The notes under the pieces: generated by a model | The model's input: the letters and a program-made list of their open reading frames with translations, nothing else | Databases searched by the model: none | Told to the model about the DNA's origin: nothing | Position numbers and translations under genes: made by a program | Assembly (NCBI RefSeq): GCF_004136635.1 | Contig: NZ_NOIU01000001.1 | Span: 1 to 64,000, forward strand | DNA length: 64,000 nt | From: Rothia halotolerans | GTDB taxonomy: Bacteria; Actinomycetota; Actinomycetes; Actinomycetales; Micrococcaceae | Reading direction: 5' to 3' | Shown: positions 26,530-61,811 of the stretch, one piece after another | How the letters are laid out: each line of letters opens with the position of its first letter | Position numbering within the stretch: the stretch's first letter is position 1

Positions 26530-26949
26530 TCAGGTTCCCCAAGGATCGATCAGCTCGACCCCGGTCTCGGCGAAGTCTTTGACATTCCGGGTCGCGCAGA
26601 ACGCGCGATGCGCTCGGCAGATCGCAGCGATCTGAGCATCGGCCGTGCTGATCGGCAGTCCCGCCTGCTCACGCGAGAGGAGGACCTCGGCGTAGTGCTC
26701 GGCCGCCTCCTCGTCGAACCCCAGCACCGCCCCGCTCTCCCGATAGGGCTGCAGCGCGATCTCGATGCCCGTGCGCAATGCCGCTTTGCGTCGTCCGTCC
26801 GGCAGACGACGGACGCCCGCCAGGAGCTCCGCGAGCGTAATCGTCGTCATGGCCACCTCGCCCTCGAGGGACTCCATCCATTCGACCACCCGTGAGTCGG
26901 GACTCGGTCGGAAGATCTCCGAGATGACATTCGTGTCCAGGACGATCAT
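26530..26949 (-). CDS. PIN-domain toxin (VapC/FitB type)
   Basis: A 139-residue PIN ribonuclease: MIVLDTNVISEIFRP (Asp5), ITLAELLAGVRRLP (Glu), STADAQIAAICRAH and ATRNVKDFAETGVELIDPW (Asp). Closely FitB-like. It overlaps the antitoxin gene by four bases. Confidence 0.93.
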   Translation of the reverse strand: MIVLDTNVISEIFRPSPDSRVVEWMESLEGEVAMTTITLAELLAGVRRLPDGRRKAALRTGIEIALQPYRESGAVLGFDEEAAEHYAEVLLSREQAGLPISTADAQIAAICRAHRAFCATRNVKDFAETGVELIDPWGT

Positions 26950-27179
26950 TCGAAGTCCACCGCCCGCGCCACATCATCGCGGCCAGGAACCCGAAGATCC
27001 TCGATGCCGCCCGCCTCCTGTGCCGCCCGCATGAGCGCAAGGCCGACATGGGGTCGACGCGCGGCCCTGGTGAGGATGTCGCGGGCTTCGGCCTCCATGG
27101 AGCGGCCGTGCTCCTTAGCCTGGGCGGCAAGCCGACTCTTCGCGCTCTCGTCTAACCCTCGAATGACAATGGATGCCAT
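26946..27179 (-). CDS. Ribbon-helix-helix antitoxin (FitA/VapB type)
   Basis: A 77-residue antitoxin starting MASIVIRGLDESAKSRLAAQ, the Arc/FitA-type DNA-binding part, followed by an acidic toxin-binding tail. The ATG at 27179 has a very strong ribosome site, AAAGGAGGTGA, six bases upstream; the longer frame start is rejected. It pairs with the PIN toxin at 26530. Confidence 0.92.
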   Translation of the reverse strand: MASIVIRGLDESAKSRLAAQAKEHGRSMEAEARDILTRAARRPHVGLALMRAAQEAGGIEDLRVPGRDDVARAVDFE

Positions 27180-27194
27180 CAGAATCACCTCCTT

Positions 27195-27214
27195 TGATAT
27201 CGACAATGATATCA
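27195..27214. promoter_or_regulatory. Operator of the FitAB-like module
   Basis: TGATATC occurs at 27195-27201 and 27207-27213, five bases apart. Because GATATC is itself palindromic, the block TGATATCGACAATGATATCA is also an inverted repeat. It overlaps the start of the ribosome-site region and resembles the related site at 28948. Confidence 0.7.
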
Positions 27215-28293: not shown

Positions 28294-28713
28294 TCACCTC
28301 AACGCAAGCGTCTCCACCGGCTGCCCCGTGATCTCTGCGATGAGATCGAAGTCCTTGTCCAGTGCCAGCACCGTGAGCCCGGCCTTCTCGGCGGTCGCCG
28401 CGATCAGCAGATCCGGAATGGAAGGCGCTCGATGATGGCCGCGATCGGCGAGGAGCATCTGCACCTCGAATGCGCGGTCCTCCATCGCGGGCGTCAGATG
28501 CTCGATCGGCATCAGGGACAACGGCGGCAGACCGAAGGCCGCCCTCCCCGCTTCACCCGAGCGGGCGGAGAAGCCGAGTTCGAGCCTCGTCATCGTCGAG
28601 AGCCGCACCAGACCTCGTTCGATGCGCGCATTCCACACGTCGAGGCGCGCGGCGTGCCCGGACTGCATCCGTGCGTAGGCCGATTTGTCGATCAGCCAAC
28701 TCGTCACCGCCAC
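28294..28713 (-). CDS. PIN-domain toxin (VapC type)
   Basis: A 139-residue PIN nuclease with the less usual start [16 protein letters not shown] (Asp9), [13 protein letters not shown] (Glu), [15 protein letters not shown] and [19 protein letters not shown] (Asp). It overlaps the antitoxin gene by ten bases. This is a different PIN subgroup from the two other PIN toxins in the window. Confidence 0.92.
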
Positions 28714-28928
28714 GCGGCATCCATCACGTCGTCGTCCGCCAGATCGGCGAAAGCCTCGGCGGAGCGCTCCCAGTCCGCAGCCGTCAGTTCAGACGCGGAG
28801 CTGACGGGAGCAGCGCCTTCGAGCTTCCTGCGCAGGAACTCGTTACGAGACAGGCCCTGATCGGACGCCGCGGCATCGATACGCTCCACCGCCTCGTCGC
28901 TGAGCCCTCGAATCAGAACATTCGTCAT
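28704..28928 (-). CDS. Ribbon-helix-helix antitoxin (VapB type)
   Basis: A 74-residue antitoxin: [20 protein letters not shown] is the ribbon-helix-helix start, with [12 protein letters not shown] completing it, and the tail [20 protein letters not shown] is acidic. The ATG at 28928 has GAGGTGA five bases upstream. It pairs with the PIN toxin at 28294. Confidence 0.9.
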
Positions 28929-28947
28929 GATGATCACCTCTTACATA

Positions 28948-33258: not shown

Positions 33259-33390
33259 GGCCGCCTTCCGCTCGTCTATCAGGGTGCGTGACGTATCAAG
33301 ACTACACGCGACACTACTAACGTGCGACGTCTGTAGTAGACTCATCACGCGACTTTGACGACAACCCTGCACCACAGAGAGGGAGTAGCG
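33259..33390. promoter_or_regulatory. Divergent promoter region of the repressor operon
   Basis: 132 bases. CACGCGAC appears twice as a direct repeat (near 33303 and 33345), with GTAGTAG/CTACTA elements between. It is the likely binding site of the XRE proteins; exact operators cannot be set. Confidence 0.4.
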
Positions 33391-33759
33391 ATGGAGGATA
33401 TGAACGACGAACTGGCGGAGCGGCTGAGGAAAATGAACGAACGGGCTGCCCCACCGCTGACCTGGGAGGAATTCAAGGTCAGGACGCCGTGCCGCGGCTG
33501 CGGGCAGCCGTGGTTGGACGGGGAGGAATGGCGGTCGGGCGGGACCGCGCACTTCACCGACGAACAGCGGGAGCGCTACGAGGCCGAGAAGAAGCGCTTC
33601 GCTCAGCAGCACGGCCGCTGCGGGAACGAGCGGCACTCGATGTCGGGGTCGCTGACCATCCACTGCAGGCGGTGCTGCCCGCCTCCGCCGCTGTCGCCGC
33701 AGCAGGTCGAGGAGATCCGACGAGTCTTCGCCGAGGCGAGGAGGTCGCGGAACGGCTGA
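33391..33759 (+). CDS. Cysteine-rich small protein of the mobile element
   Basis: 122 residues. Cys pairs CRGCG (near residue 35), CGNERH (near 78) and CRRCC (near 92) could bind zinc. The N-terminus is helical and charged (MEDMNDELAERLRKMNERAA). GGGAG five bases before the ATG supports the start. No family recognised. A strong terminator follows. Confidence 0.6.
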   Translation: MEDMNDELAERLRKMNERAAPPLTWEEFKVRTPCRGCGQPWLDGEEWRSGGTAHFTDEQRERYEAEKKRFAQQHGRCGNERHSMSGSLTIHCRRCCPPPPLSPQQVEEIRRVFAEARRSRNG

Positions 33760-33768
33760 GCGAGGCGG

Positions 33769-33800
33769 AGCAGCCCCGGTGCTTGAGCACCGGGGCTGCT
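33769..33800 (+). terminator. Perfect 14-bp stem-loop terminator
   Basis: AGCAGCCCCGGTGC (33769-33782) pairs fully with GCACCGGGGCTGCT (33787-33800) around TTGA, ten bases after the Cys-rich gene, with CTGTGTT following. Confidence 0.85.
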
Positions 33801-33908
33801 CTGTGTTCGGGCGACGGCAGCACAGGTCGGCGCTGCGCGCTGGCCTGGCGGCCTGGGCCGGCCGAGGGCCGGGGGTCAGAGGAAGGCTGCATGGGATGCC
33901 AGCGCGTC

Positions 33909-34311
33909 TGTCTCACGGTTGTGCGACAGACGTTTCCGCAGGTCAAAGGCCGTTTCAGGGGTTGACTCCGGATGCACTGTCGCACACTCAAAATGGATCG
34001 TGAGACAGGCGTTTCCGCAGGTCAGAGGCAGTTTTAGGGGTGATTGTCTCACTTGTCTCACCAATTCTTAGAAAGATACATACGCGCGAGCAGCGAGCTG
34101 CGTCCAATGGGATGCGTAGACCTGCATGCTGGTTCTGTCCTAGATAAGCCCGGGAAAAGCGTGAGACATGTGAGACATTCGCTCAAATACCTGCCCTGAC
34201 CAGGACAAACTCTGTCTCACGCCTGGAAATCGGCGTGCGACACTTCGCTGACTTTCCGCGGGAAACATGCGCTCTGACCAGGGAGTATGCCTGTCTCACG
34301 CTCGTGAGACA
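33909..34311. repeat. Dyad-symmetric octamer array; candidate origin or partition site
   Basis: Twelve copies of TGTC(T/G)CAC or its complement lie in a 772-base gene-free stretch between two convergent genes. Forward copies start at 33909, 33978, 34045, 34054, 34213 and 34292; reverse copies at 33921, 34000, 34161, 34170, 34235 and 34304. Every copy has a mirror partner, start plus end always summing to 68220-68222, so the whole 403 bases are symmetric about 34,110. GGTCA at 33941 and 34020 mirrors TGACC at 34275 and 34197 in the same way. Pair spacing outward from the centre is 9, 22 and 12 bases on each side. Position and form fit iteron-type origin, centromere or relaxosome DNA rather than a promoter. 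Confidence 0.85.
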
Positions 34312-34531
34312 GGCGCGTCGCTCAGCCCCGTCGGCCAGGGTCCGCTTGCGAGAGCGGTCTCCCCTTGGTTGTCCCCGGCGGCGAGCGCGTTGCGAGGGGC
34401 GTGACCGCTTGGGTGTGCTCCTCCTTGCTCGCGCTACGTGCAGAAATTGGCCGGAGGCTAATAGACCTCAACGCCTCACTGACCCGACCCCTCCCTCAGG
34501 CCACCTGGCCTGCGCGAAGCGGCAGGAGTGC

Positions 34532-34960
34532 TCAATCGAGGTTCCGCAGCGGCCACTGCTGGACATGAAGGTCATTGAGAAGGTCCTGGTGCTCGAGCTC
34601 CCGGAGCTTCTCCTTCGCGGCCTCGACCTCTTCCTCGCGTCGTTCGACCTCCTCCTGTGCGGCGCGAAGGAGGAGGTCCGCCTTTTCGACCGCGTACTCG
34701 GCGTGTCGGATCTCGACGTCGTGCTCGTCGTCGTCCCCACCGAGCAGGTGCACCAGCGGTATGCGCAGCACTTCGGCAGCGTAGGCGGCTTCGTTGAGCT
34801 TGACGCCTCGCAGGCCTTTCTCGATCTTGTTCACCGCCGTGGGGATGAGCGTGACCCCGAGACGCTCCGAGAGCGCGTGAGCGAGCTCGGCCTGGGTCAT
34901 GCCGACGGCCATGCGGCGGTGCCGCAGCCGGTGGGCGAAGATCTCTTCGGGCGTGGCCAT
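34532..34960 (-). CDS. XRE-type regulator with coiled-coil tail
   Basis: 142 residues: helix-turn-helix at about 8-80 (RMAVGMTQAELAHALSERLG, TAVNKIEKGLRGVKLNEAAY) and a long helical coiled coil (about 88-135, AEYAVEKADLLLRAAQEEVE onwards). GGGAG stands before the ATG at 34960. It is divergent from the AlpA operon and likely its repressor, binding the palindrome at 35011. Confidence 0.8.
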   Translation of the reverse strand: MATPEEIFAHRLRHRRMAVGMTQAELAHALSERLGVTLIPTAVNKIEKGLRGVKLNEAAYAAEVLRIPLVHLLGGDDDEHDVEIRHAEYAVEKADLLLRAAQEEVERREEEVEAAKEKLRELEHQDLLNDLHVQQWPLRNLD

Positions 34961-35269
34961 GTCTCCCTCTCTCAGCACCCACACAAGATGCTCTCATCGC
35001 AGTCTATAGCATCAAAGTTGCTTTGATCGGTGCGAGTTGGTAGAGTCGGGAGCAAGGCGGAGCTCAGTGGCCCCGTCACCGCTCTATAAGACCGTTGATC
35101 TCTCGCCGACACTGGCGACTGGGGAGATCTCGGGCCGGGGACGCGGCCCCGGATGGAACTCGACCACGCAGGCGGCAAAGAAGATCTTCGGTTCAACCGG
35201 AGGCGCGGGGAGCAGTCGAGGCACCGATCGACGACACGGTTGATCGGGCGTCTTGAAAGGGCTCCTGTC
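34961..35269. promoter_or_regulatory. Divergent promoter and leader before the AlpA operon
   Basis: A 309-base region without a convincing gene. It holds -10-like TATAGC and TAGAGT, the palindrome at 35011, and a hairpin CCGGGG/CCCCGG at 35135-35152 in the AlpA-side leader. An open frame from 35153 runs into the AlpA gene but lacks a ribosome site. Confidence 0.5.
35011..35027. promoter_or_regulatory. Palindromic operator ATCAAAG-TTG-CTTTGAT
   Basis: A perfect 7-bp inverted repeat with a three-base centre, 51 bases upstream of the XRE start and in the shared promoter region. It is a probable site for the XRE protein at 34532. Confidence 0.7.
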
Positions 35270-35476
35270 ATGACCTCTGTCAATCAGCTGCCGGACCGGC
35301 TGTACTCCGTGCGCGAGCTGTGGGCTCTGGGCTACGGCTCGAAGAACTCGATCCGCGCGCGCATCCACGAGGGAGCCGTCCCCGCCGTGCGTGTGGGGAA
35401 GACCCTGAAGGTCCGTGAGAGCGATCTCCGCTATCTCGCCGTGCCTGTCGAGCCTGCCGAGGAGGCCTCGGCATGA
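35270..35476 (+). CDS. AlpA/excisionase-type helix-turn-helix protein
   Basis: A 68-residue MerR-like winged DNA-binding domain (HTH_17): LYSVRELWALGYGSKNSIRA then VPAVRVGKTLKVRESDLRYL. AAAGGG lies nine bases before the ATG at 35270. Such proteins act as excisionases or activate mobile-element replication operons. It heads an operon of overlapping genes leading to the primase-helicase. Confidence 0.85.
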   Translation: MTSVNQLPDRLYSVRELWALGYGSKNSIRARIHEGAVPAVRVGKTLKVRESDLRYLAVPVEPAEEASA

Positions 35477-35943: not shown

Positions 35944-36010
35944 GATCTCAACCGATTGTCCGTCTGGCCGAGGTGGGACTCGTTGCCAGGCGTTGCTGAA
36001 AGGACACGCG

Positions 36011-37915
36011 ATGTCTTCCAACACCTCCATTGTACCTGAAACCGACGAGGCTGTGGGCTCCACAGGGAGCGAGACCGCCAAGCGGGGTCACGAGGCCGGC
36101 GGCGTCCTCGACAGGGTCAAGGCTCACTTCGCCGAGCAGCAGGGCCTCGTCCCCCTCAACCAGATCATCACCTTCGTGACGAAGGCCTACCTCGCCGACC
36201 TCGACCCGGGCGATGCCCCCGGGCCCGCCGTCATCGAGGCCCAGCTGCTCACCATCGCCAACGCGGTGATCCGCGCCGAGAACGCCAAGACCGGCGACCG
36301 CGACCTCAAGCTGCCGATGGCCAAGACCCTCAACGCCTGGCAGGTCGCCCAGATCCTGATTCGGCTGCACAACGTTGTCAGGATTTCGCCTGCCGGCGAG
36401 AGCAACGTCGATCAGGAGTACGACCCCATCGCGATGTACCAGTCACGTGGCCCGGGTCGCGGAACTTACACGGCGAGCGAGGACGACATCCGGAAGAAGG
36501 CCCGGGGCTACAACGCCCAGCTCATCCTCCGCGACTTCAACGAGGTCCTCGCCGTCCTCAAGGAGGACTGTAGGCGGACGACGACCTGCCAGCACCGCGA
36601 CCTCATCGCCGTCGGGAACGGCATCTTCCACTACGGCACCGAGCCGCTCGACATCGCCATCGGCGGCAAGGAGTTCCACTTCGAGCCCAAGTCGCTCCAC
36701 CCCTTCGACCCGGCGCTGGTCTTCCTCGTGAAGAGCAAGGTCGATTACCGTGACGACGCCGCTCCCGTCTTCATCGAGAATCCTGACGGCACGGTCTGGG
36801 ACCTCGAGTCCTGGGTGGCCGAGCTCTCCGACGACGAGGGCGTCCCTGAACTGCTCTGGGAGATCGCGGGAGCGATCATCCGTCCGCATGTGAGCTGGAA
36901 CAAGTCCGCCTGGTTCTACTCGGAGCGGGGCAACAACGGCAAGGGCACGGCTTGCAGCCTCCTGCGCAATCTCGTCGGCGCTGGATCCCACACCTCGATC
37001 CCGCTGTCCGACTTCGGCAAGAACTTCGCTCTCGAGCCTCTCATCAAGTCGACGGCGATCATCGTCGACGAGAACGACGTCGGAGAGTACATCGATAAGG
37101 CCGCGAATCTCAAGGCCGTCGTCACCGGCGACGTCATCCAGATCGACCGCAAGTATCGGATGCCGCTCGCGTATCGCTTCGAGGGCTTCATGGTCCAGTG
37201 CCTCAACGGATTTCCGCGGGTCAAGGACAAGTCCGAGTCGTTCTACCGCCGGCAGCTCTTCGTCCCGTTCTCGAAATGGTTCGGCGGCGAGGCCGAGCGC
37301 CGCTACATCAAGGACGACTACCTCAAGCGGCCCGAGGTCCTCGAGTACGCCCTCTGGTACGTCCTCCACAAGGCGGGCGGCGGCGCGTACTACGAGCTGT
37401 CCGAGCCGGAGGCGACCGAGATCGTCCTCGCCGAGTACAAGGAGGCCAACGATCCCGTCCGCGCCTTCTGGGGGGAGTTCCGGGAGCGCCTCGCCTGGGA
37501 CCTCGTGCCGTTCACCTTCGCCTACGACCTTTACAAGGCCTGGTTCGCCGACGTGTCGCCCACGGGCTCGCCCGTGGGCAGGCAGCAGTTCATCGCCGAC
37601 CTCATCGAGATCGTGCGCGCCGATCCCGAGTGGCACTTCCCGGGTAAGGACAAGACGGGCAAGGTCAAGGAGACCCGTATCGGCAGGCACATGAACGCCA
37701 CCGAGCCGCTCATCGCCGAGTACGACCTCAAGGCCTGGAAGCGGTCGGTGAGGGACAAGTACCGCGGCATCCTCCGCTCGACACCGCGGTCGAACACCGC
37801 TGTCGCGCAGGCGACCGACGCGCCCAGCGCGCCGCCGACCGCGGCCGCTGGCATCAAGTATCGCGGCGACGACGACATCGATGCTCCAGCCGACAACGAC
37901 GCGCCGACCACCTGA
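36011..37915 (+). CDS. Phage/plasmid primase-helicase, P4/D5 type
   Basis: 634 residues. The central and C-terminal part is an SF3-type helicase: Walker A SERGNNGKGTACSLLRNLVG near residue 306, a Walker B region AIIVDENDVGEY near 350, and the D5-type stretch FEGFMVQCLNGFPRVKDKSE before an arginine-rich sensor. The N-terminal 280 residues include an acidic D5_N-like region (LILRDFNEVLAVLKEDCRRT). The C-terminal tail is a low-complexity linker. It should start replication of the element, and the octamer array at 33.9-34.3 kb is the obvious candidate target. The ATG at 36011 gives the clean N-terminus. Confidence 0.88.
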   Translation: MSSNTSIVPETDEAVGSTGSETAKRGHEAGGVLDRVKAHFAEQQGLVPLNQIITFVTKAYLADLDPGDAPGPAVIEAQLLTIANAVIRAENAKTGDRDLKLPMAKTLNAWQVAQILIRLHNVVRISPAGESNVDQEYDPIAMYQSRGPGRGTYTASEDDIRKKARGYNAQLILRDFNEVLAVLKEDCRRTTTCQHRDLIAVGNGIFHYGTEPLDIAIGGKEFHFEPKSLHPFDPALVFLVKSKVDYRDDAAPVFIENPDGTVWDLESWVAELSDDEGVPELLWEIAGAIIRPHVSWNKSAWFYSERGNNGKGTACSLLRNLVGAGSHTSIPLSDFGKNFALEPLIKSTAIIVDENDVGEYIDKAANLKAVVTGDVIQIDRKYRMPLAYRFEGFMVQCLNGFPRVKDKSESFYRRQLFVPFSKWFGGEAERRYIKDDYLKRPEVLEYALWYVLHKAGGGAYYELSEPEATEIVLAEYKEANDPVRAFWGEFRERLAWDLVPFTFAYDLYKAWFADVSPTGSPVGRQQFIADLIEIVRADPEWHFPGKDKTGKVKETRIGRHMNATEPLIAEYDLKAWKRSVRDKYRGILRSTPRSNTAVAQATDAPSAPPTAAAGIKYRGDDDIDAPADNDAPTT

Positions 37916-38195: not shown

Positions 38196-38417
38196 ATGTC
38201 CACGAACCCCAGCCTCATCGTCAGCACCTCTGGCGACGTCCAGTCGCTGGCGACCAGGCGCTATCTCGACGCCGCGCGCGTGCCGTACGCCACGGTCACC
38301 GCCGAGTCTCTGTCGGTCCTCTTCACCGACAGGGAGGGCAGCCTCCACCAGTGGGCCGGGCACCGCGCTGATCGCCTCGCAGCGGCCGTCGCCGACTTCA
38401 AGGCGGCGGCAGCATGA
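38196..38417 (+). CDS. NrdH-redoxin-like protein without active-site cysteines
   Basis: 73 residues following the NrdH/glutaredoxin pattern: the active-site segment is SGDVQSLATRRYLDAARVPY, where NrdH has CxxC-x-ATKRxLDxAGxxY, and the end has HQWAGHRADRLAAAVADF like the NrdH WSGFRPD motif. Both catalytic cysteines are replaced (Asp and Ser), so thiol redox activity is impossible by the usual route. AAGGAG before the ATG at 38196 favours this start over the ATG at 38145. A second protein of this kind is at 51654. Confidence 0.72.
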   Translation: MSTNPSLIVSTSGDVQSLATRRYLDAARVPYATVTAESLSVLFTDREGSLHQWAGHRADRLAAAVADFKAAAA

Positions 38418-38893
38418 GCATCGACGTCGACCACCGCGCTCGGGCTCTCAGGGCCTGGGCGCGGGGCCTGCTGCCCCTCGAGGCGGCGGTCGAGCTGCTC
38501 ATCACCGCCCTCGACGGTCGGCTCCTCGACGGCCCATGGATCCGCAAGGACGAGCAGGGCCGCGTCTGGTTCGACCCGGACGTCGCCGCGGCCGAGGACG
38601 GCCATCTGTCCGGCGGGGAGCGCCGCATCCTGGCCGTCGCGACGAGCCTCGCCGGCGAAGAGCACCCGGTCGATCTTGGTGACGCCATCACCGGTCTCGA
38701 CCATGACGAGCTGCGGCTCGTGCTCTGGGCCGCGGCGCATGCGGGCGGCCTTGAGCCTGACCCCCGCCCCAAGCCCCCGGTCTTCGCGCGAGCGCATGCG
38801 AAGCGCCGGCGTGCGCACCAGCCGCCCGACGCCGACGCCACCTCCGCTCCCGCTCCGGGCGGCGACGAGAACCACACCGACGAGGAGAACTGA
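38414..38893 (+). CDS. Hypothetical element protein
   Basis: 159 residues. Residues 1-110 are a compact alpha-rich part (RALRAWARGLLPLEAAVELL; HLSGGERRILAVATSLAGEE), followed by a low-complexity Ala/Pro/Asp tail. ATGA overlap with the NrdH-like gene. It resembles plasmid-borne actinobacterial proteins of unknown role. Confidence 0.65.
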   Translation: MSIDVDHRARALRAWARGLLPLEAAVELLITALDGRLLDGPWIRKDEQGRVWFDPDVAAAEDGHLSGGERRILAVATSLAGEEHPVDLGDAITGLDHDELRLVLWAAAHAGGLEPDPRPKPPVFARAHAKRRRAHQPPDADATSAPAPGGDENHTDEEN

Positions 38894-39310: not shown

Positions 39311-39817
39311 ATGTCATTCAAGACGAAGAAGCAGCGCCAGGACGAGAAGATCGAGGAGCTGCGCCGCGAGCTCGCCGCGCGCGAGGCCAAGCAGAAGGCC
39401 GAGGCCGAGGCCGAGGAGCGGCGCATCGAGCAGGCCAAGGAGCACGCGGGAGACAACCACACCCGGCTCGTCCTGGAGCTCTACGATCTCCTCGGCGTCG
39501 AGCCCGAGCACCCGAACGTCCGCGTGGTCAAGGGCAAGAGCATGTCGGTGGCCGTGGACAAGAGGGAGGACGTGAGGTCCGTGCGCCTCTTCGAGATGGT
39601 CGAGGCCCTCGTCGAGGCAGTCGACCCGTCCGTGATCGAGGAGCTCCAGCGCAAGGACGACGAGGGTCGCGAGGAACGCCGCGAGGAGCGCTCGGAGGCG
39701 AGGAAGGCATCGGCGAAGAGCCAGCAGACCAAGGTCGAGGACAAGCCGGACGCCAGGGCGACGCCTGCTCCCGGTCCAGCACCGACGCCGCAGGAGCGTG
39801 TCGCACAGCCCGCATGA
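39311..39817 (+). CDS. Coiled-coil element protein
   Basis: 168 residues, highly charged: KKQRQDEKIEELRRELAARE is the start of a coiled coil to about residue 45, a globular part (YDLLGVEPEHPNVRVVKGKS) follows, then a long acidic/basic helical stretch and Pro-rich end. GGAGGAAAAG precedes the ATG. Function unknown; it may be structural or a replication partner. Confidence 0.7.
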   Translation: MSFKTKKQRQDEKIEELRRELAAREAKQKAEAEAEERRIEQAKEHAGDNHTRLVLELYDLLGVEPEHPNVRVVKGKSMSVAVDKREDVRSVRLFEMVEALVEAVDPSVIEELQRKDDEGREERREERSEARKASAKSQQTKVEDKPDARATPAPGPAPTPQERVAQPA

Positions 39818-40746: not shown

Positions 40747-41241
40747 ATGGCACCCAAGAAGAGCAAGCGCACCGTCGTCGGCGCGTCCTTCCACGACGAC
40801 ATCGCCGACCTCGACCGTCAGCGAGCGAAGCTGGGTCTGTCTCGAGGCGAGGCGCTCAAGCTCATCTGGGAACGCTTCGGCGACGAAGCCGTCGACGCCG
40901 CGCAGCAGAGCAAGGCGCGGATCGCAGCGATCGAAGAAGAGATCGCTCCGCTCGTCGAGGCCCTCGACCGTGCGACCGCCGCATGGCGGGAGCGAGCGCA
41001 CCAGCGCCAGATGATCGGCGGGCTCCTCAACCAGGTCTCCCGCTTCGCCAACGTCCAGCGCCTGCGTCTGCGCGAGGGCGAGGTCGCCGCCGAGGATCTG
41101 CACGACGAGCTCCACGATCTCATCTACGCGGTGCGCGGCATCGAGCGCCGCCTCGACGTGCAAGCTTCCATCGAGCTGACCGACGACCAGGTACTGGCCG
41201 ATGCCCGCGCCCTCATCGAGCGGATGCGGGCCGGAACATGA
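40747..41241 (+). CDS. Relaxosome accessory protein (MobC-like position)
   Basis: 164 residues. The start MAPKKSKRTVVGASFHDDIA followed by LDRQRAKLGLSRGEALKLIW resembles a ribbon-helix-helix DNA-binding domain; residues 60-164 are helical with a coiled-coil tendency. It overlaps the relaxase gene by four bases, the standard place for a protein that binds oriT and loads the relaxase. Assignment rests mostly on context. Confidence 0.65.
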   Translation: MAPKKSKRTVVGASFHDDIADLDRQRAKLGLSRGEALKLIWERFGDEAVDAAQQSKARIAAIEEEIAPLVEALDRATAAWRERAHQRQMIGGLLNQVSRFANVQRLRLREGEVAAEDLHDELHDLIYAVRGIERRLDVQASIELTDDQVLADARALIERMRAGT

Positions 41242-44200
41242 GCGATGTCACCCGCGGCAGCATCGTCGCTAAGGTCCTCACCGGTCGGACGGCCGCGCCG
41301 CTCCAGCGCTACCGGGACAAGCTCGAGGAGGGCCAGGAGGCCCCGCTGTTCACGGCGACCCGGCACTGCTCGCACGACGCAGAGGCTCAGATCCTTCAGT
41401 GGAAGGCCGTCCGCGAGGAGCATGGCACCCAGGGCGCGACGCGCAAGGTCAACGACAGCTACGAAGCCGTCGATCCGGAGACCGGCATCCACGCCAACGG
41501 TCAGCGGGGAACGCACGTTCGGTACCACGACGGCAAGCAGTGGAGGAAGCGGCCGGTTCGCGCCGACGAGACCCCGACCCATCTGCTCGTCAAGGCGGAC
41601 GACCTCGTCAGGTACGAGAAGGAGTCCGAGGCGACCCACACGATCTACTCGGCCGGCCGCGACCTCGTCAATCCCGACAGCGTCGAGGACTGCGCCCGAT
41701 TCTTCCTCGCCGTCAAGGCGATGCGCGACGAGAAGTACCCGGGCATCCAGGAGTCGATGTGGCTGGAGAGGAACGGTGAGTCGGGCAACGTCCACGTCCA
41801 CGTCGCCAGCAACTCGACGATCTACGCCGACTTCGAGCTCGACGGCGTGCAGTACAAGGCCGGCCACAAGATGGCCGGTGATCTGCTCCGCGTGCACGCG
41901 GTCCGCGCCGCGTTCGAGCAGTTCCTCGACGCGCATCAGGAATACGGCTTCGAGCAGAGCTTCGCCCGCGTCGGGACGAAGGAGTACGCCGAAGCCCAGC
42001 ACCGCGACGGCCAGCACTCGTACTGGGAAGCGAAGCGGGCCGGCAAGGAGAGCCAGCAGGACCGGATCCGCCGAGCGATCTACGAGGCGCTGCTGACCGA
42101 CAGTGTCCACGACCGCGACTCGTTCGTCGCCGAGATGCACAAGCGCGGCGTCGCCGTCCGCGAGACCGGCCTGCGCCGCGGCGTGGCCGGCAGGAACCAC
42201 GACTACAACTACCGGCTGACGAGCTCGGGCCCGAAGTCCACGGGCATCAACGGCAAGACCCTCGGCGTCGAGTACAGCTACAACGCCATCGACGCGCAGC
42301 TGAGCCTCAAGGCGCTGTCCGAGGAGATCGAGGTCCCCCAGGGCAAGCAGAAGATCGGCGACCGCCGGCTCTTGCCGTTCGAGGGCAAGCCTTGGTCGGA
42401 GGAGACGCAGCGCGACTACGAGAAGCTCGTCGCCGACATCAAGGACCTCGTCGAGGACGAGCAGGAGAAGGCCGCCGCCGAGATCGTCGAGAAGGGCCCG
42501 CTGACCTTGGGCCGGTCCGTCGTCCGCGAGCTCGAGTCCCGCCGCTCGGCGTGGTCGACCAGAGATCTCATGCGGGCGCTCGACCGCCGCATCGCGCCGC
42601 TGCGCGAGACCGGTCACGCCGACCTCGACGAGATGCGCGAGGACGCGATCGCCGCGGCCCAGGAACGTCTCGTCTCCGTACTCGGGCGCAAGGTCATCAG
42701 CGACGGCACCGAGCACGTCCGGCACTGGACGACCCAGGAGGTCATCGACCAGGAGCAGGCCATCGAGGAGAGCCTCGCGCGCCGCAGCCGCCACCAGGGC
42801 GTCGACGGAGAGGTCAAGGTCGACCGGGGCACGTTCACGCTCGCCGACGGCCAGGCCAGGGCCGCGCGGATGCTCACCGGCACGCACAGGGTCGCCGCCA
42901 TCGAAGGGGCCGCAGGCTCGGGAAAGACCTCGACCCTGGAGGCGGCCAACGAGCAGCTGATGAAGACCGGTCGGCGCATGGTCGTGGTGTCCCCGACGAA
43001 GAAGGGCGCGATCGAGGCCGGCGAGGCCATCGACGCCGAGGGCAACTCGGTCCACAGCATGCTCTATCGCGCCGGCGCGTTCATGGACCCGGAGAACGGC
43101 AACGCATGGGTGCTGCCCGATCAGTGGAAGGAACAGCCGCCGCAGTGGCGCATGGACGAGAACACCGTCCTCGTCGTGGACGAGGTCGGCATGCTCGACA
43201 AGGCCACCGCCGCCGTCCTGCACAAGTACGTCGACGACATGAATGTCGGCACCTACGCCGTCATGGGCGACTCGAAGCAGCTGGCCGCCGTCGGTCGCAG
43301 CGGCTACCTCGCTCGGGCCGCCGAGCTCAGCGACCAGCACGTCGTCCTCGAGGAGCTTCAGCGCTTCCGCACGGCCGAAGGAACCCTCGACGAGGAGTAC
43401 GCGGCTGCCACGCTCAAGCAGCGCCTGCGCCAGAGGCCGGACGCCTTCGTCGATCTCCTCAAGCGCCGCGACCAGCTCGTCACCGACGGCCGCGAGGCGA
43501 TCATCGACGGCGTCGCCCAGACGGTCGTCGAGGAGCTCGCCGCCGGTCAGGACTCCCTGGCCATCTCCGCGACCAACGCGCTCAACCAGGAGATCAACCA
43601 CAGGATCCTCGATCGCCTCATCGAGCGCGGCGACATCGACGTCAGCCGCACCGTGACCGGACGCGACGGCGACCGCATCGCCGTGGGCGCGAAGGTGGCG
43701 ACCCGGAAGAACAACAGTGACTTCGACGTCGCCAACCGCGAGACCTGGACGGTCAAGGAGATCCGGGACAACGGAGGCATCGTCGTCGAGAACGACAAGG
43801 GCAAGGGCCGGGAGCTCTCGGCAGCTTACGTCCGCGAGGACGTCCAGCTCGCCTGGGCACTGACCGGCCACGGCGCGCAGGGCATGACCGTCGACCGGGC
43901 GCACCTCGTCCTCACCGACCGCACCGATGCCGCCGGCCTGTACGTCTCGCTCACACGTGGTCGGCACGCCAACACCGTCCACGCCGTCGCCGACGACGAG
44001 CAGGACGCGCGGAGGCAGTTCCGGGCCGCGACGCGGCGGGAGAACGCCGACGCCGGCCTCCACGTCCTCGGCGAGCAGGCCGAGGAGCAGATCGCCGAGA
44101 TCGAGGCGACTCAGGCTGCCAAGGAGCAGCAGGCCGCCAGCGACCGCCGGGTGACCGAGGCGATCGAGCGGCAGGAGGCCAAGCTCAAGCAGCTCGAGAA

Positions 44201-45254
44201 CGAGACCGAGGCCTTCGACGAGCGCGTCGACCGGGACTTCGACCAGCGCTGGGCCGCTCAGGACGCTGACCGCGAGCAGTTCGAGCGCGATCGGCAGGCG
44301 TTCCTCGCCGACCCTCCGCAGCGGTTCGCCGGGCTGACCGAGGACGAGCTGGCGCGGCTCGTCGCCGAGAAGGTCATCGTCAAGGACGACCGTCGCAGCG
44401 GCTACCTCGAGACCATGCGCAGCGATGATCTCGCCGCGATGCGTCGAGAGCACGGGTACACCGACGAGGAGGCGAACTACCTCGCGGTGAAGTGGTGGTC
44501 GCTGGGCCGCCCTGAGACCGTGCAGGAGCGCGAAGCCATCGCTGCGCGAGCCGAGTCCTCGCAGGCGGTCGAGGCCACTGCCACCTCTCAAGACTCGACA
44601 CGCGACGTTGCTATGCCGACGACGACGCCGCGCATCGACGAACGCGAGGAGCAGCAGTCCCCGACGACGACGTTCACGTCCCGCCTGCGCGGCATCGAGG
44701 TGAAGTCGCCGCGGACCAGGGAACGCCTCGACATGCTCGCCCAGCTCGAGGAGGACTACCGCGGACGGATGCCCGACGCCGCCTTCGAGCAGCGCCTCGT
44801 CGAGATCGGCGGTGTCCGGAGGCAGCTGCTCGACACGCACGGGGACGCCATGTCGCCCGGGTTCCGCCGGCCGCTCGAGCAGCGGGCAGCGATGCGCGAC
44901 GACGCTCAGATGGCGTTCGACACCCGCGTGGCACATCACGAGGAGATCGAGGATCTCCAGCAGCAGAACCTGTTCGGCCAGCACGATGACCGCATCGAGG
45001 AGCTCCGGCACGAGGCCGAGTTCAACGGCGCGTGGGCGAAGGACGTCCGCGATCTGATCAAGCGGGGCGTCTACTCGCCGCGCGACTACGACGAGGACCT
45101 GCGCGCACACCGGCAGGAGACGGCGTCCCGGAGGGCAGAGCTCGTGCCGACTGCCGCTGAACAGCGAGCCGCGGAGGCGAAGGACAACCTCCGCGCCGAC
45201 CGCGAATCGGATGCCCATGCCGCGAACGACCACGACCAGGGCATGGGCCTGTGA
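41238..45254 (+). CDS. Conjugative relaxase-helicase (TraA-like)
   Basis: 1338 residues. Residues about 1-330 are a relaxase: the HxHxxxN metal motif is NVHVHVASN (His186, His188). Residues about 540-960 form a RecD/TraI-type helicase with Walker A AAGSGKT near 560, Walker B VLVVDEVGML near 648 and the C-terminal motif TGHGAQGMTVDRAHLVLTDR near 875. A charged coiled coil and linker follow to the end. It should nick oriT, stay bound to the 5' end and unwind the strand for transfer. The histidine motif looks more like MOBQ/MOBP than MOBF relaxases. Confidence 0.88.
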   Translation: MSDVTRGSIVAKVLTGRTAAPLQRYRDKLEEGQEAPLFTATRHCSHDAEAQILQWKAVREEHGTQGATRKVNDSYEAVDPETGIHANGQRGTHVRYHDGKQWRKRPVRADETPTHLLVKADDLVRYEKESEATHTIYSAGRDLVNPDSVEDCARFFLAVKAMRDEKYPGIQESMWLERNGESGNVHVHVASNSTIYADFELDGVQYKAGHKMAGDLLRVHAVRAAFEQFLDAHQEYGFEQSFARVGTKEYAEAQHRDGQHSYWEAKRAGKESQQDRIRRAIYEALLTDSVHDRDSFVAEMHKRGVAVRETGLRRGVAGRNHDYNYRLTSSGPKSTGINGKTLGVEYSYNAIDAQLSLKALSEEIEVPQGKQKIGDRRLLPFEGKPWSEETQRDYEKLVADIKDLVEDEQEKAAAEIVEKGPLTLGRSVVRELESRRSAWSTRDLMRALDRRIAPLRETGHADLDEMREDAIAAAQERLVSVLGRKVISDGTEHVRHWTTQEVIDQEQAIEESLARRSRHQGVDGEVKVDRGTFTLADGQARAARMLTGTHRVAAIEGAAGSGKTSTLEAANEQLMKTGRRMVVVSPTKKGAIEAGEAIDAEGNSVHSMLYRAGAFMDPENGNAWVLPDQWKEQPPQWRMDENTVLVVDEVGMLDKATAAVLHKYVDDMNVGTYAVMGDSKQLAAVGRSGYLARAAELSDQHVVLEELQRFRTAEGTLDEEYAAATLKQRLRQRPDAFVDLLKRRDQLVTDGREAIIDGVAQTVVEELAAGQDSLAISATNALNQEINHRILDRLIERGDIDVSRTVTGRDGDRIAVGAKVATRKNNSDFDVANRETWTVKEIRDNGGIVVENDKGKGRELSAAYVREDVQLAWALTGHGAQGMTVDRAHLVLTDRTDAAGLYVSLTRGRHANTVHAVADDEQDARRQFRAATRRENADAGLHVLGEQAEEQIAEIEATQAAKEQQAASDRRVTEAIERQEAKLKQLENETEAFDERVDRDFDQRWAAQDADREQFERDRQAFLADPPQRFAGLTEDELARLVAEKVIVKDDRRSGYLETMRSDDLAAMRREHGYTDEEANYLAVKWWSLGRPETVQEREAIAARAESSQAVEATATSQDSTRDVAMPTTTPRIDEREEQQSPTTTFTSRLRGIEVKSPRTRERLDMLAQLEEDYRGRMPDAAFEQRLVEIGGVRRQLLDTHGDAMSPGFRRPLEQRAAMRDDAQMAFDTRVAHHEEIEDLQQQNLFGQHDDRIEELRHEAEFNGAWAKDVRDLIKRGVYSPRDYDEDLRAHRQETASRRAELVPTAAEQRAAEAKDNLRADRESDAHAANDHDQGMGL

Positions 45255-46280: not shown

Positions 46281-47771
46281 TCAGTCCAGGAGGTCGGTCG
46301 CCTCGATGTCAGGCAGGGAGACGAGGACGCCGGGCTGACCGCCGATGAGGAGGCGTCCAGTCCCAGGCTTGCGCGGCAGCAGCTCCGACGAGGTCACGCG
46401 CTCGACGCGGTCGACCGACCGCGTGCCGCGCCCGCCATGATCGGTCGAGGTGGTGACCCGCTCGTCCTCGCCGGCGAACCACGCCGCCAGCTCGAGCGCC
46501 TCCTTGGCCGGCGTCCCGGGCAGGACGAGGATGCTCGGGAACGTCTCGAGCAGCTCCTCGGCTGCATCGCCGTAACGCCTCCGCAGCTGCTTCGTGCCCT
46601 GGACGGCGGCGACGAGGCGGATGTTGTAGCCACGGAGGAGGCTGACCATCTCGGGCAGCTTCGGCAGTGGAGCCGACTGGCAGAGCTCGTCGAGGAAGAG
46701 GCCGAGGGTCGGCAGATTCCGGTCGACGCCCTTCCTCCACCACCGGATGGACTGCTCGATCACCGCGCAGGCCGCCGAGGCCGCGGAGCCGTCGCCGGGC
46801 GAGACGATGTAGAGCGTCGCACCGGGCTTCTCGAGCATCGCCGGCTCGAACGCCTCGGCGTCCTTGTCGCCGGCCACGACATCGAGCGACCAGGCCCTCA
46901 GCGCGTTGCGCATGGTCATCGCGACGGAGTCGCGCTGGCGCTGCTCCATGTCCATCACAGCGCGGAGGGCCTCGGCATGGCGCGACCCGAGCGTCTTGGC
47001 ACGCAGGTACGCGTTGCCCCAGTTCGGGGTCACGTAGTCCTCCTCGTCGGCGGGAGGAGCCTCGCCGGGCTTCGTCTTCTTCGGCGGGTGGTCGAGAGCG
47101 TCGAGGGCCCACTGAATGCCGCCGCCGTCGATCGGCTGGCCGGTCTTGAGGTGCGGGATCTCGCCGCCGGCGCGGATGAGGGCCGCCAGCGGCCTGCTCG
47201 CCATGCCCTCCCAGGTCGAGTCGGAGCCGCCCGACTTGCTCCCGCCCGAAGGGGTCCCGACGTCCTTGGTGGCGATGAGCAGGTCGGCCATCCCCACAGC
47301 CTCGTCGTCGCTGTGGACGAGCTTGCAGGGATCGCTGACGACGCGGGTGACGTCGATGCCCTGCACATGGGACTCCTTGATCTCCTCGCCGAGGTCGAGG
47401 ACATAGACGGGGCCGCGCTGGGCGCGCTTCCTGATCGTCCAAGCGACGTCCTCGCCCTTCGTCGACATGAAGATCACCGACTGATTTCCCCACATGACGA
47501 CGTTCGCGTAGAGGCAGCGCCTCCCCTTGCCGGAGCCGGTCAGGCCGGCCAGCAGCATGTGCCAGCCGCTCAGCGCGGTCTCGCCCACACGGCGTCCTGC
47601 GTTGAGCCCGTAGTCCAGAGGGTCCTGGTCCTCGAGCAGCAGGCCCGCGTACGGCATGTCGATCGGCTTCGGCTTCGACGGTGCCGACTTCGTGCCCGCA
47701 CCGGCATCGTCCTGGGCCTGGTCGGCCTCGGGTGTCGCGAACCGGTTCTTCATCGTGCCCATGAAGCTCAT
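46281..47771 (-). CDS. TraG/VirD4-type coupling protein without membrane helices
   Basis: 496 residues. Walker A is GLTGSGKG (residues 76-83), Walker B LGLFLDELCQSA near 355, and the TraG/TraD C-terminal part (LLRGYNIRLVAAVQGTKQLR; FPSILVLPGTPAKEALELAA) follows. This ATPase would bring the relaxosome to a secretion channel. No N-terminal membrane helices are seen, unlike VirD4, so the membrane proteins encoded divergently at 48.1-49.8 kb may be its anchor. It overlaps the preceding small gene by ATGA. Confidence 0.87.
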   Translation of the reverse strand: MSFMGTMKNRFATPEADQAQDDAGAGTKSAPSKPKPIDMPYAGLLLEDQDPLDYGLNAGRRVGETALSGWHMLLAGLTGSGKGRRCLYANVVMWGNQSVIFMSTKGEDVAWTIRKRAQRGPVYVLDLGEEIKESHVQGIDVTRVVSDPCKLVHSDDEAVGMADLLIATKDVGTPSGGSKSGGSDSTWEGMASRPLAALIRAGGEIPHLKTGQPIDGGGIQWALDALDHPPKKTKPGEAPPADEEDYVTPNWGNAYLRAKTLGSRHAEALRAVMDMEQRQRDSVAMTMRNALRAWSLDVVAGDKDAEAFEPAMLEKPGATLYIVSPGDGSAASAACAVIEQSIRWWRKGVDRNLPTLGLFLDELCQSAPLPKLPEMVSLLRGYNIRLVAAVQGTKQLRRRYGDAAEELLETFPSILVLPGTPAKEALELAAWFAGEDERVTTSTDHGGRGTRSVDRVERVTSSELLPRKPGTGRLLIGGQPGVLVSLPDIEATDLLD

Positions 47772-48028
47772 GGCGTCTCCTTCTTCGTGTTCCCCCAGCG
47801 GGCGGCGATGGCGACTCGCGCCCCGTCGCTGACCCGCTTCTTCGTCGCGGTCTTCTCTTCCTCGATGAGCTCGGCGATCTCGGGCTCGTCCACGTGATCG
47901 AGGCCGTGCACGAGCAGCACCCGCGCCAGCAGACCCCTGCCGAGGCCCCGTTCGACCGCGATGTCCCCGAGCGCCTTGTGCTCGCCGTCGGACAGCGGCA
48001 CCCACTGCTTCTTTCCCAGGTCACTCAC
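47768..48028 (-). CDS. Small protein coupled to the coupling-protein gene
   Basis: 86 residues (MSDLGKKQWVPLSDGEHKAL; LLARVLLVHGLDHVDEPEIA), a helical protein possibly related to ribbon-helix-helix regulators. It is first in the operon and overlaps the coupling-protein start by four bases. Function unknown. Confidence 0.65.
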   Translation of the reverse strand: MSDLGKKQWVPLSDGEHKALGDIAVERGLGRGLLARVLLVHGLDHVDEPEIAELIEEEKTATKKRVSDGARVAIAARWGNTKKETP

Positions 48029-61199: not shown

Positions 61200-61811
61200 A
61201 TGGACGACGGTGCACGGGACTACGGGTACGCGCGGGTGAGCAGCGAGGCGCAGGACCTCAGGCGGCAGGTCGACGAGCTCAAGGCGGCGGGGTGCGATCG
61301 CATCGTCGAGGAGAAGGCGTCGGGCAAGCACGGGGCGAAGCGCCCGAAGTGGGAGAAGCTCGTCGATGAGAAGGACGGGCAGCTGCGGAGGGGCGATCGG
61401 CTCACGGTCGTCGAGCTGTCCCGGCTGGGTCGGTCGACGACTCAGCTGACCGCCCTGCTGCGCGACTTCAAGGACCGGGGCGTCGGCCTGCGCATCCTCA
61501 ACCTCGGCATCGACACCTCGACCCCGGCGGGCGAGCTCATCTTCACGATCATCGCGGCGGTCGGCCAGATGGAGCGCGACCTCATCGCCGAGCGCACCAG
61601 GTCTGCTCTGGACGCCAAGCGCCGGCGCGGCGAACGGGTCGGCGGTCGGAAGCCGAAGCACACTCCTGAGCAGGTGGCCCGGGCGATGGAGTTCCTCGAT
61701 ACCACCACCATGACTGGGCAGGAGATCGCCAACGCCGTCGGAATGAGCCGGTCGCGAATGTACGCGCTGGTCGCTCGGCGACGCGCGGAGCTCGAAGGTG
61801 CTGCGACCTGA
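61200..61811 (+). CDS. Serine recombinase (resolvase/invertase type)
   Basis: 203 residues. The catalytic domain is at about 8-140: YARVSSEAQDLRRQVDELKA with the nucleophile Ser14, and LGRSTTQLTALLRDFKDRG, GELIFTIIAAVGQMERDLIA. The C-terminal HTH_Hin-type domain (TMTGQEIANAVGMSRSRMYA) follows. This small form resolves plasmid or transposon dimers rather than integrates large elements. It suggests the mobile region continues here. Confidence 0.93.
   Translation: MDDGARDYGYARVSSEAQDLRRQVDELKAAGCDRIVEEKASGKHGAKRPKWEKLVDEKDGQLRRGDRLTVVELSRLGRSTTQLTALLRDFKDRGVGLRILNLGIDTSTPAGELIFTIIAAVGQMERDLIAERTRSALDAKRRRGERVGGRKPKHTPEQVARAMEFLDTTTMTGQEIANAVGMSRSRMYALVARRRAELEGAAT

Follow-up and report, generated by a model that had tools for sequence, protein, structure and literature searches.

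A mirror-symmetric octamer array as the probable two-armed replication origin of a mobile element in Rothia halotolerans

The octamer array and its locus

The first 64,000 nucleotides of contig NZ_NOIU01000001.1 (1.08 Mb) of Rothia halotolerans (assembly GCF_004136635.1), hereafter the window, contain genes of a mobile element and, beside them, an array of twelve octamers that is probably the replication origin of this element. The gene order is array, XRE gene (on the opposite strand), AlpA-like gene and P4-family primase-helicase gene, followed by genes for a relaxase and a coupling protein (Table 1). The primase gene, the frame of which was searched from 36005 but likely starts with the ATG at 36011, lies 1.7 kb from the array, which is on its 5' side with the XRE and AlpA genes in between. 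Since it encodes a TraA-like relaxase and a TraG/VirD4-like coupling protein, the element is probably conjugative or mobilisable, judging from sequence similarity. The genes flanking the array are convergent (33355-33759, plus strand, and 34532-34984, minus strand) and a terminator-like 16-nt stem (33768-33801) stands beside it, as described in an earlier note made from the letters of the window alone.

We located all copies of the octamer TGTCKCAC on both strands. The twelve copies of the array (33909-34311) form six mirror pairs and lie at the places and on the strands claimed in the earlier note; a lone thirteenth copy (39799-39806) was found inside an open reading frame (ORF; 39311-39817). 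The single mirror axis proposed there was also recovered: the start and end coordinates of partners sum to 68220 in four pairs and to 68222 in the inner two, and the four GGTCA cores are mirrored as well (33941 with 34279, sum 68220, and 34020 with 34201, sum 68221). With TGTCKCAC written as >, the strand order is ><><>> in the left arm and <<><>< in the right, and the start-to-start gaps are 12, 57, 22, 45, 9, 107, 9, 43, 22, 57 and 12. The distance between GGTCA and octamer is 12 bases in three of the four cores and 11 in the remaining one, and a fifth GGTCA, at 33874, is outside the array. Both left-arm spacers contain exactly TTTCCGCAGGTCA, while the right-arm spacers have only CTGACCAGG in common.

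Chance as the source of the array is excluded. Specifically, 60 dinucleotide shuffles of the 64 kb, which has a GC content of about 70% (69.9%), gave at most two octamers per 403-bp stretch, and random placement of 12 sites (20,000 draws) never produced six mirror pairs, the maximum being five, obtained once. A plain or recent inverted duplication was considered and rejected, with only 51 of 160 mirrored positions outside the octamers agreeing; as mirroring between the octamers is so slight, it is the spacing, not a duplication, that is kept. No match was found in an Rfam search of 33300-35300 or in a blastn search against plasmids and phages.

Table 1. Features of the octamer array and neighbouring genes in the window
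Feature	Position	Strand	Remark
Octamer A1 TGTCTCAC	33909..33916	+	outer pair, left arm
Octamer A2 TGTCGCAC	33921..33928	-	outer pair, left arm, inverted
GGTCA core	33941..33945	+	12 bases from octamer A2
Octamer B1 TGTCGCAC	33978..33985	+	middle pair, left arm
Octamer B2 TGTCTCAC	34000..34007	-	middle pair, left arm, inverted
GGTCA core	34020..34024	+	12 bases from octamer B2
Octamer C1 TGTCTCAC	34045..34052	+	inner direct pair, left arm
Octamer C2 TGTCTCAC	34054..34061	+	inner direct pair, left arm
Axis, 99 bp without octamers	34062..34160		presumed melting/helicase-entry region
Octamer C2'	34161..34168	-	inner direct pair, right arm
Octamer C1'	34170..34177	-	inner direct pair, right arm
GGTCA core (TGACC on plus strand)	34197..34201	-	11 bases from octamer B2'
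Octamer B2'	34213..34220	+	middle pair, right arm
Octamer B1' TGTCGCAC	34235..34242	-	middle pair, right arm
GGTCA core (TGACC on plus strand)	34275..34279	-	12 bases from octamer A2'
Octamer A2'	34292..34299	+	outer pair, right arm
Octamer A1'	34304..34311	-	outer pair, right arm
Perfect 16-nt inverted repeat, terminator-like	33768..33801		adjoins array
XRE-type helix-turn-helix protein	34532..34984	-	between array and AlpA gene; best bit scores just below or near cut-offs
AlpA/HTH_17-like small protein	35153..35476	+	between array and primase; E 0.0073, below curated cut-off
Phage/plasmid primase, P4 family (D5/superfamily 3-type helicase domain and C-terminal region)	36005..37915	+	proposed initiator
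TraA-like conjugative relaxase/helicase	41238..45254	+	helicase domains exceed the Pfam cut-off, TraA models fall short of the NCBIfam cut-offs
Type IV secretion coupling protein (TraG/VirD4-like)	46281..47930	-	domain search

Conservation of the layout among relatives

The tandem octamer pair was present in one of 295 genomes of the family, namely the window's own, and within the family the octamer word is private to this genome. Similarity searches of GTDB genomes with the primase yielded 37 loci, and relatives of the primase were found in Arthrobacter, Streptomyces, Kocuria, Brevibacterium, Leucobacter, clostridial metagenome-assembled genomes (MAGs) and phages. In a scan for clustered 8-mers, run without knowledge of the octamer, 13 of 38 relatives (L005-L015, L018 and L030) had exactly the strand pattern of the window, and five others (L016, L017, L031, L032 and L041) had near variants of it. 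The word itself drifts among relatives (TGTACCAC, TGTAGCAG, TGACACAC, TGTTCCAT). For example, TGTACCAC occurs in Arthrobacter, Pseudarthrobacter, Kocuria, Streptomyces and Brevibacterium, and GACACACT (in a shifted register, TGACACAC) in two MAGs, Coriobacteriaceae and Ruminiclostridium. Thus, of the conservation on which the earlier note had made its reading depend, positions and strands are retained in relatives but the letters of the octamer are not.

Mirror pairs were counted in 29 hand-placed arrays (phage arrays, L029, L039 and L040 being among those left out), with two-mismatch sites accepted only when they had a mirror partner. At a tolerance of 20, 22 of these arrays had at least six mirror pairs and the remaining seven (L173, L043, L020, L017, L026, L033 and L022) had three to five. 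Arms of relatives contain four to nine sites. The 12-base GGTCA distance of the right arm recurs in L173, L043 (one of two), L005, L010, L013 and L017, and no GGTCA core at this distance was found in L019 and L020. In a genome of the same genus, G009 (L173:18936-19238), array, XRE, AlpA and primase genes follow the order of the window, with the nearly palindromic word TGAGTCAC; its 12 sites run >><<>> and then <<>><<, the outer and middle pairs being direct, not inverted, and although this strand order is mirrored, the outer spacings are unequal and only four pairs fall within tolerance.

Other repeat clusters and gene contexts were also seen. Relatives from Streptomyces and Brevibacterium (L013, L014, L015, L017, L030 and L041) have an additional cluster, made up of CCGTACCC-like words (5-7 copies in 170-370 bp), at approximately 3.1-3.6 kb, some 6 kb away from the origin-like array. 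In a Muribaculaceae MAG (L029:11796-12229), 17 TACCTTTT-like words form a more densely packed and irregular array 3' of the primase gene, and in a 639-kb Streptomyces plasmid (L044:1-3594) TnsA-like, Mu-transposase-like and ATP-binding genes are situated 5' of array and primase.

Proximity to the primase and covariation with its C-terminal region

The core layout was defined for a detector as two mirrored inner direct pairs with the next site 38-58 bp outside, at a threshold score of 38. In a redundant set of 127 loci, which included the window after removal of five copies of its region, 53 scored at least 38, as against none of 381 shuffles (maximum 37). Relative to the primase ORF, the inner pairs were 53-441 bp 3' in 24 of the 53 arrays, 5' within 2.3 kb in 26 and 5-7 kb away in three, such that 50 of 53 arrays were no more than 2.3 kb from the primase. 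As the loci had been collected by means of the primase, its presence in 47 of 47 loci is uninformative, but its nearness is informative. Equally informative are the numbers of these 47 loci with blastp homologs of the other genes: two for XRE, five for AlpA and one for the relaxase. When the detector was applied to 43 tiles and 39 junction pieces, which consisted largely of plasmid DNA remote from a primase, a score of 38 was attained by the G009 locus alone. The real array of NZ_CP109461 escaped the detector, its inner copy having two mismatches, and absence calls are therefore uncertain.

Similarity between octamer words follows the C-terminal region of the primase beyond the effect of the helicase core, with one clear counterexample. 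This comparison covered 31 of the 53 arrays, near copies having been dropped together with L029, L089, L090 and L092, the words of which could not be brought into register; for the 31 words used, the register was chosen by hand. Among the matches listed, the best solved structure for the primase was the SaPI5 primase-helicase, which it also matched in sequence.

Comparison with known origins

The record of Streptococcus thermophilus phage Sfi21 (AF115103) annotates positions 34487-34784, directly after the primase gene, as origin of replication, with the wording of a 302-bp non-coding region and a phage inhibitory sequence. We found in it 11 GTTAC words. A 76-bp step separates the inner pairs, whose members are 8 bp apart, and the sites next in line stand 44 and 46 bp further out, compared with 45 and 43 in the window. 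The annotated region contains a reduced form of the window's layout. Lactococcus phage phi31 has a similar pattern in TGTTCCAT, the inner pairs of which start 53 bp after pri31; this region 3' of pri31 is reportedly an experimental origin (ori31, PER), a statement that we did not find in print. The origin regions of both phages have reportedly been tested by experiment. Both share with the window mirrored inner direct pairs 8-9 bp apart, a next site 41-49 bp outside and a position beside a P4-family primase, but differ in having shorter arms, other words (GTTAC and TGTTCCAT), an AT-rich axis and a location 3' of the gene.

Origins of classical iteron plasmids (Rep_3/RepA) contain head-to-tail direct iterons, whereas in the window only the inner two pairs are direct and the strands are mirror-ordered. 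Superfamily 3 helicases, such as SV40 T-antigen and papillomavirus E1, form double hexamers on inverted sites; unlike the window, their origins have fewer sites and are bound through an N-terminal origin-binding domain.

A two-armed principle is already known from phage satellites, the phage-inducible chromosomal islands (PICIs), including the Staphylococcus aureus pathogenicity islands (SaPIs). Passages of PMC6092414 describe PICI origins as two iteron sets around an AT-rich region, state that pri-rep-ori segments drive plasmid replication and call this organisation unique among bacterial replicons. The spread of the layout argues against such exclusivity, the PICIs in those passages having been compared by description, not by detector. 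The window resembles these islands in the two iteron sets flanking a central region and in a putative initiator of the SaPI5 type. It differs in that its array is 5' of the primase with XRE and AlpA genes between, not immediately 3' of a rep gene, in its fixed 12-site mirror layout and second motif GGTCA, in an axis that is not strongly AT-rich, and in belonging to an element with conjugation genes. The SCCmec primase-helicase Cch2, for which a portion of PMC7581432 describes binding of short iterons at a putative origin by the C-terminal domain, likewise combines a Primase_Cterm helicase with short iterons, but has three 5-nt direct iterons and no two-armed array. One actinomycete element with a Poxvirus_D5 protein is mentioned in a part of PMC3218068.

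The earlier note knew of no described origin with this layout. Regarding the principle, close precedents exist in the PICIs and in the Sfi21 origin; for the exact 12-site layout, and for an origin of this kind in conjugative elements of actinobacteria, our literature searches, with most subscription journals outside their coverage, returned no title. The literature searched likewise showed neither the drift of the word nor the reach of the fixed 12-site layout into a conjugative element of an actinobacterium, a plasmid of Streptomyces and chromosomal loci in several phyla.

A probable two-armed origin and its alternatives

The layout is found repeatedly next to related primases, and an annotated phage origin contains it in reduced form; we therefore consider it highly probable that the mobile element starts its replication at this array, as an origin of two-armed iteron type that serves two hexamers of the P4-family primase-helicase. 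The C-terminal region of the primase-helicase (winged helix and tail) would bind the octamers; the six octamers of each arm would nucleate one hexameric ring, possibly with one subunit per octamer; and by mirror symmetry the two rings would face each other, head to head, across the 99-bp axis. The axis would then melt and two forks depart in opposite directions, presumably giving bidirectional replication after excision. The hexamer on each arm, the facing rings and the melting of the axis are extrapolated from published work on iterons and PICIs. Six sites per arm would fit one site per subunit, a count that the relatives' arms of four to nine sites leave hypothetical.

Several observations weigh against this origin. 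The detector left 74 of the 127 primase loci under threshold; pGKT2, whose primase shows 49% identity across 80% of its length, had no detected array in 180 of its 182 kb; and the layout was weak or not detected in, for example, L037 and L038 (Leucobacter), L045 (Gordonia), L046 (bIL310), L048 (PY1) and L050 (LP-P111), although the last three have GTTAC-type repeats 3' of the primase. GC skew of the array-bearing 639-kb Streptomyces plasmid showed no inflection at the array. In addition, the axis (52.5% GC) is GC-poor relative to the window (69.9%) yet hardly below the arms (58%). The loci L078 and L100 have the common word AGTTACTG and C-terminal parts that are unlike (winged helix 0.53, tail 0.27). 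A smaller covariation test, on 15 sequences from two locus sets and the window, was not specific, with partial r of 0.34 for the N-terminal part, 0.37 for the winged helix and 0.33 for the tail (70, 81 and 85 of 2000 permutations, respectively), and joint exchange could yield covariation, as the array adjoins the 3' end of the gene in many phage loci. Finally, no tyrosine integrase was found on the window's contig, the genome's three PF00589 matches being on another contig (serine integrases were not searched), and excision is hence a presumption.

The earlier note had named an iteron-type origin or a partition centromere; the former is supported by the recurrence beside related primases and by the annotated phage origin, and the latter is unsupported. 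At a centromere, the product of the neighbouring XRE gene, or else a ParB-like protein, would bind the array and secure segregation of the excised element. A cluster of short sites does adjoin a helix-turn-helix gene here, and in two relatives whose octamers differ (L173/L004 and L019) the XRE gene still separates the array from AlpA. However, XRE homologs occur in only two of the 47 loci, ParA (PF13614) is absent from the array-bearing 639-kb plasmid while pGKT2 has ParA and no array was found in it, the annotated Sfi21 origin contains the reduced layout, and the octamer follows the primase C-terminal region, all of which make a centromere very unlikely.

There is similarly little likelihood that the octamers are primarily an operator cluster bound by the XRE or AlpA protein for regulation of the replication operon: convergent genes end on either side of the array, which adjoins a terminator-like stem, XRE and AlpA homologs are lacking in most of the 47 loci, and 24 of the 53 arrays are 3' of the primase. 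Nevertheless, the XRE and AlpA genes are located between array and primase and the inverted octamer pairs with their 4-bp spacer resemble dimer operators, and an origin could additionally serve as an operator. Least probable of all is an origin of transfer (oriT) or other conjugation site used by the TraA-like relaxase; the element carries both a relaxase and a coupling protein, but the relaxase gene is 7 kb off and a relaxase homolog was found in one of 47 loci, phage records included, while the layout occurs in phage loci (the relaxase was not sought in L054-L131).

Other features of the element and its relatives

The Pfam scan covered 16 proteins of the window, and no ParA or ParB was found among the ten array neighbours scanned. 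A resolvase is encoded at 61200, and no tRNA was found in the window. Two small gene pairs (26530-27206 and 28294-28937) resemble VapBC toxin-antitoxin modules, as judged by eye from their translations. A small protein (38414-38893) with no Pfam match shares 74% identity over 87 residues with L004:432-770, the same-genus primases being only 31-34% identical. Downstream of the primase, three relatives encode a protein of 1057-1224 residues with FYDIES near its start (L013:12170-15343, L017:12135-15371 and L024:14985-18659). The L013 copy had no Pfam or NCBIfam match at E 0.001; this protein is possibly a divergent replication enzyme.

Implications

More tentatively, and with rather less than even confidence, we propose that P4/D5-family primase-helicases in bacterial mobile DNA may share an origin grammar, ideally of 12 sites, six per arm with one site per subunit of two head-to-head hexamers, in which the spacing is kept across phyla and the word changes with the C-terminal region of the enzyme; through such changes of word, phages, satellites, plasmids and conjugative elements may fall into incompatibility groups. 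One spatial rule, rather than sequence, would then link the origins of phages, plasmids and a conjugative element, and those of unannotated elements could be found from their layout. The 6 + 6 count would offer a sharp test of double-hexamer helicase loading, and the natural word variants would provide a ready series for studying origin specificity and incompatibility.
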